From: Candidatus Binatia bacterium
GTDB taxonomy: Bacteria > Vulcanimicrobiota > Vulcanimicrobiia > Vulcanimicrobiales > Vulcanimicrobiaceae
Reading direction: 5' to 3'
DNA length: 39,767 bases
Assembly (NCBI GenBank): GCA_035541935.1
Contig: DATKMJ010000020.1
Location: forward strand, 1-39,767
A program made the translations under genes and the position numbers. The notes under the pieces were generated by a model, which saw nothing but the letters and a program-made list of their open reading frames with translations, did no database searches and was not told the DNA's origin. Shown here piece by piece: positions 20,124 to 30,598 of this stretch. Each line of letters starts with the position of its first letter. The first letter of the stretch is position 1.

Positions 20124-22829
20124 GTGAGAACGGCCACTCTTCTTGCCGTCGCCCTCGCGATATTTGCCGTGGTGGACGCCGTCGCGTTCAGGACGAGCCT
20201 CTACCGCAGCATCCTCGACCCGAACTCGAGCACCGGCAGCTTCGAGGCTGCGATCGATCAACTTCGAGCGCTGCGGGCCGACCCGCGAACCGACGTGCTC
20301 GTGCTCGGCGATTCGCGAATCTACTCGGGCCTCGATTCGAAGGCCGCGAGCGTGGCGAGCGGCGGCTTGCGCTTCCTCAACGGGGGCGTGCCCGGAACGA
20401 CGCCGCGCTGCTGGCCGTTCTTCGCGCGCGCCATCGATCCGAATGCCGGCCGGCTGCGTGCCGTCGTCATTCCGGTCGATACGTACGCTGACGACGACTC
20501 CGCGATCGGCAGCCTCGACGGCGACGATCGGCCGATGGACCTGCGCTACATCGTCTTTCAGACGCGCGTCGCCGATCTTCCGAAACTGGCGGGATCGTTC
20601 TCCGATCCGCGCGAGCGCGTCGAGTATGGAATAGATCTCTTCTGGCGTGCGGCCGAGCTGCGCGACGATTTTCAGGAGCTCGCGGCAAATCCAGCCGCGC
20701 GTTTCGCGCTGCTCGCGCACGCGCCGTCGCGGTCGCCATACGACCCGCTGGCGGCGCATCCCCGAACGGAGTCGCTCGTAGGGCTGCGCGTGAACTTTGC
20801 GACCAACGCAATCGAGTATCCGCCGGGCATGAGTGACGACGAGCGAGCCGCGATCGCGACGCAGGTGCTGCGCGTCCCCAAGCCGAGCCCGTCGTACGCG
20901 ACCTATAGGCTCCAGTGGCTCGCGCCGATCGCCGCCCGGTATCGCGCCGCGGGCGTTCCCGTGATCTTCGTGCGCATCCCGACGCGACCGGCGCATCGCA
21001 AAGCCGACGAGAGCCCGAGCGGATCGCTCCTGACGATCGGCCGCGTTGACGGCGCGCGCTTTCTGCCCGCAGCGCCGTATCTCGCGCTCGAGCAGCCGCA
21101 ACTCTTTGCCGACGAAGACCACCTTAATCGCGAAGGAAGTCTGCGCTTCAGCCGCCTGCTCGGCGCCGACGTCGCCCGCACGCTAACGACGGCGTCATGC
21201 CCGTCGTGTCATTCCCGGAATGTCACGCGCAGCGGCATCGAACGGCATGTCACCCTGAGCGGAGTCGAACAGCATGTCATCCTGAGCGTAGTCGAAGGGC
21301 TGAGCGTAGTCGAACGGCGCAGCGGAGTCGAAGGGCGCTCCTGGGAAGCGCGCTACGCGGGCCTCAACGGACCGTACGATCTCTCGTGGTTCGAAGCGGC
21401 CGCGGGAATCGGGATCCCGCTGCGCTTTCAGTCGTACGAGTTCTGGCTCTTCGTGGCGATCGTCGCCGCGCTGTTCTACCTGCTCCCGCGGCGGTACGGC
21501 AAGTGGGTGCTGCTGCTTACGAGTTACTACTTCTACGCGCGCTGGAACGCGAAGTACGTGCTCTTCCTCTGGATCCTTACCGCGAGCGACTACGCGATCG
21601 CGATCGCGCTGGAGAAGCAGCGCGAGGTCGCGCGCCGCGATCCGCGGTTGCTCCTCGGGCTGGGCGTCGCCGCAAACCTGGCCTTTCTCGGAACGTTCAA
21701 GTACCTCAACTTCGCGAGCGGCACCGTCGCGGCGCTGCTCGGAATGCACGAGAACCCCTGGCTCGTCAACCTGTTCGTGCCGATCGGCATCAGTTTTCAC
21801 ACGTTCCAGAGCATCTCGTACCTCGTCGACGTCTATCGCGGCCGCATGACGGCGATTCGCAAGCCGCTCGACTACGCGCTCTACCTCGCGTTCTTCCCGC
21901 AACTGCTCGCGGGGCCGATCGTGCGGGCGGGACTCTTCTTCGGCGAATTGTTCTCGTGGCGGCCGCCTACTCCGGCGGACGTTAGTTATGGCTTGGCCCG
22001 CGCGGGCTTCGGGATGGTGAAGAAGACGGCGATTGCCGATCAGTTCGCGCCGGCCGCGAACGCATACTTCGGCTCGATCGCGAGTCATCCGGGCGCGCCG
22101 GCGGCGTGGAGCGCGGTCTTTGCGTTCGGCATGCAGATCTACTTCGATTTCTCGGGCTATAGCGACATCGCGATCGGCTGCGCGCGGCTCTTCGGCTTCG
22201 TCTTCCCCGAGAACTTCGCAATGCCGTATCTCGCGACGAGCGTCACCGATTTCTGGCATCGCTGGCATATCACGCTCTCGACGTGGCTGCGCGATTACGT
22301 CTACATACCGCTCGGCGGCAGCCGCGACGGCAAGCTCGATACGCTCCGCAACCTCATGCTGACGATGCTGATCGGCGGGCTCTGGCACGGCGCGCAGTGG
22401 ACGTTCGTTGCCTGGGGCGCCTTTCACGGCATCGCGCTCTGCCTGGAGCGGGTGCTCGGCATCGGCCACGAGCGCACGGCGCCGCGCGGCATCGTCGCGC
22501 TTGTTCGTATCGCGATCACGTTCGCGATCGTCACGCTCGCGTGGGTGCTCTTCCGCGCGCCGACCTTCGGAGCGGCCGCTGCAACCTATCGCGCGCTCTT
22601 TATCGGCGGAGCCGGGACGTCGATGCTCGCCGGATGGCCGGCGGTGCTCGCCGCGGGCGTCGTCGCGTTCGGCGCGGCGCGGCTGCTCTTCGATCGGTGG
22701 AACCTGCGTCTCGCGTGGGACCAACTGCGCCCGCTCTCGCAGGCGGGTGCGCTCGCCGGAGTGTTGCTCGCGCTCGCGCTGCTCTCGTGGCCGGGGCTAT
22801 CCCCAACGTTTATCTACTTCAAGTTCTAA
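20124..22829 (+). CDS. SGNH-hydrolase-like domain fused to MBOAT O-acyltransferase
   Basis: A 901-residue protein from GTG 20124. An N-terminal anchor (5-22) precedes an AlgJ/AlgX/DltD-like SGNH domain: GDSRIYSG (62-69, presumed nucleophile S64) and DEDHLNREG (330-338, presumed Asp and His). Residues about 356-407 are encoded by tandem repeat DNA. The MBOAT part starts near 433 (FQSYEFWLF) and includes YYFYARWN (468-475), FFPQLLAGPI (590-599), DFWHRWHITLS (709-719) and GGLWHGAQW (751-759) with invariant H755. The pairing resembles alginate-type acetylation (AlgI plus AlgJ/X), where the MBOAT passes acetyl across the membrane and the SGNH domain transfers it to a polymer. Such partners are normally separate genes. 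The target polymer is unknown. Confidence 0.88.
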   Translation: MRTATLLAVALAIFAVVDAVAFRTSLYRSILDPNSSTGSFEAAIDQLRALRADPRTDVLVLGDSRIYSGLDSKAASVASGGLRFLNGGVPGTTPRCWPFFARAIDPNAGRLRAVVIPVDTYADDDSAIGSLDGDDRPMDLRYIVFQTRVADLPKLAGSFSDPRERVEYGIDLFWRAAELRDDFQELAANPAARFALLAHAPSRSPYDPLAAHPRTESLVGLRVNFATNAIEYPPGMSDDERAAIATQVLRVPKPSPSYATYRLQWLAPIAARYRAAGVPVIFVRIPTRPAHRKADESPSGSLLTIGRVDGARFLPAAPYLALEQPQLFADEDHLNREGSLRFSRLLGADVARTLTTASCPSCHSRNVTRSGIERHVTLSGVEQHVILSVVEGLSVVERRSGVEGRSWEARYAGLNGPYDLSWFEAAAGIGIPLRFQSYEFWLFVAIVAALFYLLPRRYGKWVLLLTSYYFYARWNAKYVLFLWILTASDYAIAIALEKQREVARRDPRLLLGLGVAANLAFLGTFKYLNFASGTVAALLGMHENPWLVNLFVPIGISFHTFQSISYLVDVYRGRMTAIRKPLDYALYLAFFPQLLAGPIVRAGLFFGELFSWRPPTPADVSYGLARAGFGMVKKTAIADQFAPAANAYFGSIASHPGAPAAWSAVFAFGMQIYFDFSGYSDIAIGCARLFGFVFPENFAMPYLATSVTDFWHRWHITLSTWLRDYVYIPLGGSRDGKLDTLRNLMLTMLIGGLWHGAQWTFVAWGAFHGIALCLERVLGIGHERTAPRGIVALVRIAITFAIVTLAWVLFRAPTFGAAAATYRALFIGGAGTSMLAGWPAVLAAGVVAFGAARLLFDRWNLRLAWDQLRPLSQAGALAGVLLALALLSWPGLSPTFIYFKF
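21206..21336 (+). repeat. Tandem repeat array inside the SGNH-MBOAT gene
   Basis: Units starting TGTCA at 21221, 21248 and 21275 are 27 bases apart, so in frame (nine codons). Each contains a GAGCG/CAGCG-x-x-GTCGAA core. Shorter partial units follow to 21336. The third unit includes CATCCTGAGCGTAGTCGAAG, the core of a dispersed family also seen at 23804, 28001 and 30504. Confidence 0.8.
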
Positions 22830-27310: not shown

Positions 27311-30300
27311 ATGGCCGTCGTCGGCGGAGGGCTCGCCGGTCTCGCGGCGGCGCTCCGTCTAAAGGACGCCGGCGCGCGCGTCGAGCTCTTCGAGCGCAGC
27401 CGGCTGCTCGGCGGGCGCGCCACCTCTTTCGAGATCGACGGCGTCGAGGTCGACAACGGGCAGCACGTCTTTCTCGCGTGCTGCACGGAGTTTATGGATT
27501 TCGCGCGGCGAGTCGGCATGGAAGACGATCTTCGGCTTCAAGATCGCTTTGAAGCGCGGATTCTCTCGCGCGACGGAACCACCGGGAGGCTGCGTGCCGG
27601 CGCGCTGCCGGCGCCGCTGCATCTCGTCGAGTCGTTTCTCGCCTATCGCCAACTAACGCCCGCGCAGAAACTGCGCATCGCGCGAACGCTGCTCCGCTGC
27701 GCGCCCGCGCTCGACGGCGAGACGTTCGAAGCGTGGCTCCAACGCAACGGCCAAGGCGCGGGCGAGCGGCGGGCGTTCTGGGACCCGTTCTTCATTCCCG
27801 CGCTCAACGCGCCGTTCGATCGCGTCTCGGCCGCCGATGCGCTCTTCGTGCTGCAGACCGCGTTCTTGCGCGATGCGAGCGCGGCGCGCTTCGGTTTCTC
27901 GCGGGTTCCGCTCGCGCATCTCGCCGGCGCCGCTGCGCGGCAGCTCGACGCCGTGCATACCTCGACGGCAGTGCTCGGCGTGGAGCCGGGCGGCGGCCGC
28001 GTCACTCTGAGCCTGTCGAAGGGGGAAAATGCAACCTTCGATGCGGTCGTCCTCGCGGTGCCGCCGAAGCAGGTCGAGCGAATCGTGGCCGATCCGGAGC
28101 GCTACGGGATCGCCGACCTCGATGCGTACGACGCCTTTCCGATCGTCGACGTACACCTGTGGCACGACGGCGGTGCGAGCGGTCTCGATTTCGCCGCCGC
28201 GCTCGAATCGCCGCTCCAATGGATTTTCGAAAAAGCGCCGGGCTATCTCTGCTGCAGCATGAGCGCCGCGGACGAGCACCTGACGCTTCCGACGCAAGAG
28301 TTGGAGGCGCTCGCGTGGCGCGAGATTCAGGCGTTTCTCCCGGCGTTGCGCGAGGCGAAGCTGCTGCGCAGCGCGGTCACGCGCAATCCCGAGGCGACGT
28401 GGCTCCCACGCGCCGGACGCGCGCGCACCGAACAGCGTACCAAGCATCCCGCGATCGCGATCGCAGGCGGCTGGACGAATACCGGCTGGCCCGACACGAT
28501 GGAGGCGGCGGTTCGCAGCGGAAACGCCGCGGCGGAGCACCTGCTCTCGCCGCTGGCAGACGCGCGGCGCGCCGCATCGCGGAACGGCTCGCCGCGACCG
28601 GAGCACGAGCACGCGCTCCATCGTTCGATCGGATGGCTGCTGCAGACGCAGTCGACCGAAGGCTGGTGGTCGGGAGAGCTGGAGACGAACGTCACGATGA
28701 CGGCCGAGCACGTGCTTCTCTTCCGCTTCTTAGGCTTGCCGCTCGACGAGTTTCGGATCGGCGCGATCGCCCATATCCTCAACAATCAGCGCGCCGACGG
28801 TTCCTGGGCGCTCTACTACGATGGGCCGGCCGACCTCAGCACGACGATCGAGGCGTACGTCGCGCTGCGCGTGCTCGGCGTCGAGCGCGATCGAGAGGAG
28901 ATGCGCCGGGCGCTCGACGTCATTCTGCGTTTCGGCGGCGTCGTGCGGGCGCGCGTCTTCACGAAGATCTGGCTCGCGCTCTTCGGCGTCTATCCGTGGT
29001 CGGGCGTGCCGTCGCTTCCGCCCGAGATCGTCTACTTTCCGCTCTGGATGCCCTTCAATCTCTACGACTTCGCCTGCTGGGCGCGCGGCACGGTCGCACC
29101 GCTGACGATCGTCGTCTCGAAGAAGCCGGTGCGCGAGCTCGGCGTGGACGTAAGCGAGATCGTCGCGCCGGGAACCGAGCGCGAGATGCGGCGGGTCACG
29201 GGCAAGCGCCACTGGCTGATGTACGTCGAGAGACTCCAGAAGCTCTACGAGCGGCTTCCGGTGCAGCCGTTTCGCGGCGACGCGCAGCGGCGAATCGCGG
29301 AGTGGGTGATCGAGCGGCAAGAGGCCGACGGCAGTTGGGGTGGGATTCAACCGCCCTGGGTCTACTCGCTCATCGCGCTCGACCTCATGGGGTATTCGCT
29401 CGACCATCCGGTGATGCGCAAAGGCATCGAGGGGATGCGCCGCTTCACGATCGACGACGCGCAAGGCTGGCGTTTTCTCGCGTGCATGTCGCCGGTCTGG
29501 GATACGGCCTGGGCGGTGCGCGTGCTCGCGCTCGCCGGCTTCGATTCGTCGCACCCGGCGATGCGCCGGGCCGTCGAATGGCTTTTGCGCGAGCAGATCC
29601 CCGACGACGCACCGGGCGATTGGCGAATGAAGTGCAAGAACGGGCGCGGCAACGGCTGGGCCTTCGAGTTCGACAACGACGCCTATCCCGACATCGACGA
29701 CACGACGATCGTCGTGCTCGCGCTCCTCGAGGGCGGCGATCGTGGCGCGGTCGCATCCTCGGTGGAACGGGCGCGCCGCTGGACGCTGGCGATGGACTGC
29801 CGCAACGGCGCCTGGGCGGCGTTCGATCGCGATAACACGCGCTCGTTGCTCTACGACATGCCGTTCTCGGATTTCGGCGCGATGATCGACCCGCCGACCG
29901 AAGACGTCACCGCGCACGTGCTCGAGATGCTCGCCGCCTTCGGCTACGACACGTCGAACCGCTACGTGGCCCGCGGCTTGCAGTATCTGCGCGAAACGCA
30001 AAAGCCTTCGGGATCGTGGTTCGGCCGGTGGGGCGTCAATCACGTCTACGGAACGTGGTGCGTGATCTCGGCGCTCGCCGCGCTGCGCACCGGCGAGGAC
30101 ATGATCGAACGCGCCGCGGCGTGGCTGATCTCGATGCAAAACGACGACGGCGGATGGGGCGAGAGCTGTCATTCCTACGCCGACGAATCGTTCGCTGGAA
30201 TCGGCCGGAGCACGCCGTCGCAGACGGCCTGGGCGGTGCTCGGGCTTCAACTCGCGGGTTTAGCGCAACATCCGGCGGTCGATCGGGGTCTTGCCTTCCT

Positions 30301-30598
30301 GTGCGAACGCCAGCGCCCCGACGGAACGTGGGACGAGCCCGAATGCACCGGAACGGGCTTTCCGCGCGACTTTTATATCAACTACCATCTTTATCGCCAT
30401 CTCTTCCCAGCAATGGCTCTCGCCGAAGCCCAGCGCGCGCATCATCCTGAACCATCCCGGCGTCAACCTGAACCATCCCGGCGTCAACCTGAATCACCCC
30501 CGTGTCATCCTGAGCCTGTCGAAGGATCGCGCTCCGCGCAGGCTTCAGCACAGGACGAAAGCACGGAAACCCTGAAGGAAGCGACCATACAATCATGA
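27311..30598 (+). CDS. HpnE (hydroxysqualene dehydroxylase) fused to squalene-hopene cyclase
   Basis: One 1095-residue frame from ATG 27311, which puts the FAD-binding VVGGGLAGLAAALRL at the N-terminus; a GTG at 27242 would add 23 residues. Residues 1 to about 412 are HpnE, an amine-oxidase-like flavoprotein reducing hydroxysqualene to squalene (ERSRLLGGRATSF; C-terminal AGGWTNTGWPDTMEAAVRSG). A short linker follows. From about 434 the squalene-hopene cyclase begins: QW motifs QRADGSW (493), QEADGSW (670), QKPSGSW (897), QNDDGGW (943), QRPDGTW (1001) and the catalytic acid motif DIDD (794-797). The last 54 residues are encoded partly by 21-base tandem repeats. The two are normally separate proteins. 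Residues 232-238 (TLSLSKG) are encoded by a repeat copy. Confidence 0.92.
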   Translation: MAVVGGGLAGLAAALRLKDAGARVELFERSRLLGGRATSFEIDGVEVDNGQHVFLACCTEFMDFARRVGMEDDLRLQDRFEARILSRDGTTGRLRAGALPAPLHLVESFLAYRQLTPAQKLRIARTLLRCAPALDGETFEAWLQRNGQGAGERRAFWDPFFIPALNAPFDRVSAADALFVLQTAFLRDASAARFGFSRVPLAHLAGAAARQLDAVHTSTAVLGVEPGGGRVTLSLSKGENATFDAVVLAVPPKQVERIVADPERYGIADLDAYDAFPIVDVHLWHDGGASGLDFAAALESPLQWIFEKAPGYLCCSMSAADEHLTLPTQELEALAWREIQAFLPALREAKLLRSAVTRNPEATWLPRAGRARTEQRTKHPAIAIAGGWTNTGWPDTMEAAVRSGNAAAEHLLSPLADARRAASRNGSPRPEHEHALHRSIGWLLQTQSTEGWWSGELETNVTMTAEHVLLFRFLGLPLDEFRIGAIAHILNNQRADGSWALYYDGPADLSTTIEAYVALRVLGVERDREEMRRALDVILRFGGVVRARVFTKIWLALFGVYPWSGVPSLPPEIVYFPLWMPFNLYDFACWARGTVAPLTIVVSKKPVRELGVDVSEIVAPGTEREMRRVTGKRHWLMYVERLQKLYERLPVQPFRGDAQRRIAEWVIERQEADGSWGGIQPPWVYSLIALDLMGYSLDHPVMRKGIEGMRRFTIDDAQGWRFLACMSPVWDTAWAVRVLALAGFDSSHPAMRRAVEWLLREQIPDDAPGDWRMKCKNGRGNGWAFEFDNDAYPDIDDTTIVVLALLEGGDRGAVASSVERARRWTLAMDCRNGAWAAFDRDNTRSLLYDMPFSDFGAMIDPPTEDVTAHVLEMLAAFGYDTSNRYVARGLQYLRETQKPSGSWFGRWGVNHVYGTWCVISALAALRTGEDMIERAAAWLISMQNDDGGWGESCHSYADESFAGIGRSTPSQTAWAVLGLQLAGLAQHPAVDRGLAFLCERQRPDGTWDEPECTGTGFPRDFYINYHLYRHLFPAMALAEAQRAHHPEPSRRQPEPSRRQPESPPCHPEPVEGSRSAQASAQDESTETLKEATIQS
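28001..28022 (+). repeat. Dispersed repeat copy inside the HpnE domain
   Basis: GTCACTCTGAGCCTGTCGAA followed by GG; 20 of 22 bases match the copy at 30504-30525. It is in frame and encodes VTLSLSKG in a loop before a beta strand. Confidence 0.75.
30440..30525 (+). repeat. 21-base tandem repeats at the 3' end of the HpnE-SHC gene
   Basis: Units start at 30440, 30461, 30482 and 30503, each 21 bases (seven codons). They share a C-x-T-C-A-x-C-C-T-G-A-A/G core and encode HHPEPSR, RQPEPSR and RQPESPP, then CHPEPVEG. The last unit is a full dispersed-repeat copy (GTCATCCTGAGCCTGTCGAA, then GG). They lie after the folded cyclase domain. Confidence 0.8.

Follow-up and report, generated by a model that had tools for sequence, protein, structure and literature searches.

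The fused gene and its two domains

The window analyzed here, a stretch of 39,767 nucleotides, belongs to a genome of 2.4 Mb (G000) that is related to assemblies of Candidatus Eremiobacterota. It contains a gene in which both halves of a probable cell-surface acetylating enzyme of a soil bacterium are merged into a single protein. General features of the gene are summarized in Table 1. The frame has no internal stop and has 19 fused orthologues, in agreement with the original prediction of a one-frame fusion. Its signature motifs are GDSR (from residue 62, including S64), DEDH (from residue 330, including D330, D332, and H333), and GLWHG (from residue 752, including H755); both the domain order and key residues of these motifs are conserved among homologues. 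The locus is the same throughout the genus: the fused gene has an MFS gene on one side and a cluster of isoprenoid/hopanoid genes on the other.

Table 1. Features of the SGNH-MBOAT gene (positions refer to the window)
Feature	Position	Strand	Details and basis
Single-chain SGNH-MBOAT acyltransferase gene	20124..22829	+	901 aa, GTG start, TAA stop; open frame and 19 one-frame orthologues
N-terminal membrane anchor helix, residues 2-23	20127..20192	+	Predicted helix; hydrophobic sequence
Putative SGNH hydrolase-fold domain, about residues 57-355	20292..21188	+	Motif conservation, model, weak Foldseek matches
Putative SGNH catalytic residues	S64 20313-20315; D330 21111-21113; H333 21120-21122	+	
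Interdomain linker	21192..21416	+	Residues 357-419 predicted disordered, pLDDT below 50
Repeat array	21216..21336	+	TRF; unit spacing; matches elsewhere in genome
MBOAT domain	21417..22826	+	His755 at 22386-22388; Pfam PF03062, DltB matches
C-terminal acyl-shuttle motif FIYFKF (FXYXXF)	22809..22826	+	Tyr898 at 22815-22817

The identity of the C-terminal half as an MBOAT protein is unambiguous: it matches Pfam PF03062 (E 1.3e-29), and H755 is invariant in the aligned homologues. This match, to PF03062 and not to AT3 (PF01757), also excludes the protein from the class of AT3-SGNH fusions. The closest solved relative is DltB (PDB chains, 4.5e-36), which is likewise the first Foldseek match (TM 0.72-0.75 by target); of the AlgI-like MBOAT originally proposed, the MBOAT assignment stands, with DltB as its nearest solved structure. 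The domain does not qualify as DltB proper, since the TIGR04091 DltB profile matches at 5e-47 with 160.9 bits, below its curated cut-off of 375. At the C-terminus, F896, Y898, and F901 are invariant in an alignment of 11 sequences (A1) and form the FXYXXF acyl-shuttle motif defined for DltX and PatA (PMC12148441).

The N-terminal half can be assigned tentatively to the SGNH fold, on motif conservation together with weak fold matches. G62, D63, S64, D330, and H333 are invariant in 19 sequences, giving a GDS block and a DxxH block, and this half is modeled with a pLDDT of 89.8. The top Foldseek matches are SGNH enzymes, DltD first, at weak scores (best E 3.6e-3, low TM). A Pfam search of the SGNH half returned no significant match in this protein; the same half of one relative matches Lipase_GDSL_2 at 0.0075. 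Among the catalytic residues first put forward, S64, H333, and H755 are retained, and the acid is reassigned: D332 is substituted in acidobacterial homologues, whereas D330, of the DxxH block, is kept. The label AlgJ/X-like was given up, there being no AlgJ or AlgX match in Pfam, a best fold match to DltD, and a neighborhood of an MFS transporter and isoprenoid/hopanoid genes rather than an alginate context.

Age of the fusion

Searching 60 genomes for the fused gene (the window's own and 59 relatives) recovered 19 fused orthologues, 14 from the same genus and five from other genera of the family, all of them uninterrupted single frames. In a separate collection, whose genomes partly overlap with the first set, all 16 Eremiobacterota-type records are fused. 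The nearest unfused homologues are found in the Acidobacteria, as two genes in the same order, SGNH then MBOAT. Stop and start codons overlap by 1 nt (TAATG or TGATG) in four of six acidobacterial pairs (L089, L091, L092, and L093); the L090 pair has a 12-nt gap and the L095 pair a damaged SGNH frame, and L094, which contains runs of N, was left out of this count. The contig of L093 is titled as a Bordetella parapertussis MAG and carries an acidobacterial-type pair; it probably belongs to a mislabelled bin.

According to the original prediction, the repeat array in the linker may have given rise to the fusion by taking the place of a stop codon and a spacer between two genes. The array is indeed repeat DNA of an intergenic type placed exactly between the two domains, but it is missing from the linkers of all 19 fused orthologues, and two of these come from genomes in which the repeat is undetected altogether (G020 and G029). 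The causal reading fails because fused relatives carry no such array; moreover, because the closest gene pairs mostly overlap at the stop/start, no spacer was available for replacement. We regard a repeat-made fusion as extremely improbable, with cause and order reversed: as judged from sequence comparison, the fusion is ancestral and the array arrived later. A repeat at a domain junction thus need not be the cause of the fusion, and relatives need checking. The fusion would have arisen once, before the diversification of this family of Eremiobacterota, most simply when an overlapping SGNH-MBOAT gene pair, such as those that persist in the Acidobacteria, lost its intervening stop codon.

It might also be argued that the frame is fused in name only and yields two proteins, the MBOAT part having its own start or being released from the chain. 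The PatAB, Alg, and Dlt systems as a rule use separate genes (PMC12148441), and the linkers of some relatives contain in-frame GTG, TTG, or ATG codons. The linkers of G000, G014, and G001, however, have no such codon in frame between the SGNH and MBOAT domains, and every relative keeps the frame despite changes in length (282 nt between aligned anchors in G000 versus 138-228 nt in relatives). Separate production of the MBOAT part is, in our view, very unlikely, although the chain may be cut by proteolysis.

A dispersed repeat in the linker and in other genes

The tandem array noticed at the outset is real: TRF reports a period of 27 in 3.1 copies (21216-21300), followed by a period of 18 in 3.1 copies (21282-21336). 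Four scored 27-nt units start at 21247, 21274, 21292, and 21310, with spacings of 27, 18, and 18, and are preceded by a degenerate unit. The core CCTGAGCGNAGTCGAAGG, allowing up to three mismatches, occurs six times in the window, four of them in the array, against 0.27 expected. These units belong to a family with the consensus TGTCAYCCTGAGCGKAGTCGAAGGGC, for which the genome contains 81-99 matches, although copy number may be collapsed in this draft assembly. Of about 41 clusters elsewhere in the genome, most fall between genes, and many are found at the ends of contigs; intergenic and coding counts are approximate, as they come from a simple codon-score gene-finder script applied to the stretches around repeat matches. 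The suggestion that intergenic-type DNA has here become coding is borne out by this distribution. The repeat was detected in 20 of 34 genomes of the family and in none of 44 others of the phylum. An Rfam search of the whole window gave no match, and a literature search found no paper on the repeat sequence itself.

Since 18 of 29 arrays with at least three cores in this genome possess at least one open frame, the openness of an array is no evidence of coding by itself; that the frame spanning the array is coding follows from its orthologues being fused in one frame. Spacing in multiples of three is likewise a weak sign of frame selection, as 61% of spacings genome-wide are such multiples. The array has no strong inverted repeat, and this, together with a host in the Eremiobacterota, sets it apart from Rickettsia palindromic elements proper. 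In our interpretation, a dispersed repeat restricted to this bacterial family was inserted late into a linker that already existed.

Other repeat or palindromic inserts are present in the linkers of four other species (G004, G002, G006, and G009), with the frame kept in all. The G004 linker contains an inverted copy of the TGTCAYCCTGAGCGKAGTCGAAGGGC family, scoring 21.7 with the PWM versus -5.1 for the best match elsewhere in that locus. The G002 linker holds a hairpin (12-bp arms) bordered by TGTCATCC and GTCGAAGGACC, with weak matches elsewhere. The hairpins of the G002, G006, and G009 linkers are stronger than all control windows of their genes. A second palindromic family, GGGGTGTGCCGGCC...AGGTTAACCGCTCGGCCGGCACACCCC, is common to the G006 and G009 linkers (L022 and L024) and has copies scattered over at least seven of the genus's genomes, including G001, G002, G009, G012, and G014. 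Since close relatives of G006 and of G009 in the tree are without this element, more than one gain or loss must have occurred. The inserts of G000 and G004 could descend from one insertion, and a common origin may extend to the G002 insert.

The TGTCAYCCTGAGCGKAGTCGAAGGGC repeat is also found in frame in other genes of G000. A MetH-like cobalamin-dependent methionine synthase (L064:1678-5175, contig C15) carries the insert APFDSAQDDKRGSAAPFDSAQGDT in an interdomain linker, between the pterin-binding and B12-binding_2 domains; repeat-like inserts occur at this position in G002, G011, and G017, and the other orthologues compared, by eye, are without one. A VPS10/sortilin-like protein (L057:1879-4758, contig C6) has an in-frame insert of about 40-50 aa, present only in G000 among the orthologues compared. 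Further in-frame copies lie in an alpha-2-macroglobulin-like protein, a NUDIX protein, and a membrane protein, and the repeat makes up C-terminal tails of RsfS-like (L046:131-736), FabI-like (L067:4920-5732), and GH20-like (L052:3265-5226) proteins. Of the six frames, gene inserts use two, VILSxVEG and PFDxAQxD. All nine scored clusters of G010 and G013 lie between genes, so that invasion of genes is not a genus-wide trait. Within the window, an HpnE-like amine oxidase is fused to a squalene-hopene cyclase in one 1095-aa frame (27311-30595), and the C-terminal tail of this protein (array 30442-30513, HHPEPSRRQPEPSRRQPE...CHPEPVEG) also appears repeat-derived.

That at least five species carry inserts in this linker, and that array periods are multiples of three, could be taken to mean that the linker repeats are adaptive, with copy number tuning the tether between MBOAT and SGNH domains, perhaps by fast switching. 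Multiples of three, however, already make up 61% of spacings genome-wide; insert-free linkers in relatives stay at 138-228 nt; and the presence of the same repeats in MetH, the VPS10-like protein, and C-terminal tails suggests a general tolerance. An adaptive role consequently seems to us improbable, and the inserts are probably neutral, the linker tolerating them because only length and flexibility would be needed, although a longer linker may bring some advantage.

The TGTCAYCCTGAGCGKAGTCGAAGGGC family has the properties of a protein-invading repeat: it is dispersed, mostly intergenic, and in some genes in frame where orthologues are without copies. Whether the whole picture holds, in which a family-restricted repeat of Eremiobacterota recurrently invades genes in frame at linkers and tails and has as a recurrent target an apparently undescribed single-chain SGNH-MBOAT enzyme, with a tether replacing docking, we judge to be an even bet.

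Proposed mechanism and comparison with known systems

Taken together, we consider it highly probable that the gene product is an envelope O-acyltransferase in one chain, resembling PatA plus PatB or DltB plus DltD, that the fusion occurred once, early in the family, and that the repeat came later into a tolerant linker. The MBOAT domain would use His755 to load an acyl group (probably the acetyl of acetyl-CoA) onto Tyr898 at the outer face of the membrane, and the tethered SGNH domain (S64-D330-H333) would collect it from Tyr898 and hand it to an envelope polymer. The isoprenoid/hopanoid genes nearby do not point to a particular acceptor. The N-terminus of PatA is predicted to be periplasmic (PMC12148441), and an extracytoplasmic SGNH domain and linker preceding the MBOAT domain are therefore topologically consistent. 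An open-frame copy of the dispersed repeat later landed in the G000 linker and grew to at least four units by multiples of three.

In published systems, MBOAT and SGNH are separate proteins, and SGNH fusions are known only with AT3; we found no description of a fused MBOAT-SGNH protein in the open-access literature. The PatA/PatB system (PMC12148441) shares with this protein the catalytic His and C-terminal FXYXXF of the MBOAT, the Ser-Asp-His of the SGNH partner, and an outward MBOAT N-terminus that fits an extracytoplasmic linker. It differs in consisting of separate proteins, whereas here there is one chain with SGNH first, and in having peptidoglycan as its acceptor, the candidate acceptor here being an envelope polymer. 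DltB and DltD, of teichoic acid D-alanylation, are the best solved-structure matches for the two halves, but are also separate proteins, and in the Dlt system the shuttle motif is on DltX rather than at the MBOAT C-terminus. The AT3-SGNH fusions (OatA, OafA/OafB; PMC9558356) similarly combine a membrane acyltransferase and an SGNH domain in one chain; their membrane domain, however, is AT3 instead of MBOAT, and their SGNH domain is C-terminal instead of N-terminal. With a natural one-chain SGNH-MBOAT enzyme, the acyl hand-over between membrane and outer sites would become open to study with both partners in a fixed ratio.

Rickettsia palindromic elements and intragenic REPs (PMC10969869, PMC3733652) resemble the TGTCAYCCTGAGCGKAGTCGAAGGGC family: they too are short dispersed repeats inserted into functional genes without breaking the frame, often at linkers, loops, or tails. 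The Rickettsia element is a palindrome of ~150 bp, whereas the family described here has another sequence, forms mainly direct-repeat arrays in G000, and occurs in another phylum. A 2024 review considered in-frame protein-invading repeats outside Rickettsia conceivable among prokaryotes (PMC10969869), and intragenic REPs, including some in linkers, are already on record (PMC3733652); the invasion described here takes in-frame protein-invading DNA into another phylum. With these precedents the repeat is ordinary in kind, and it is the architecture of the enzyme that appears to be new.
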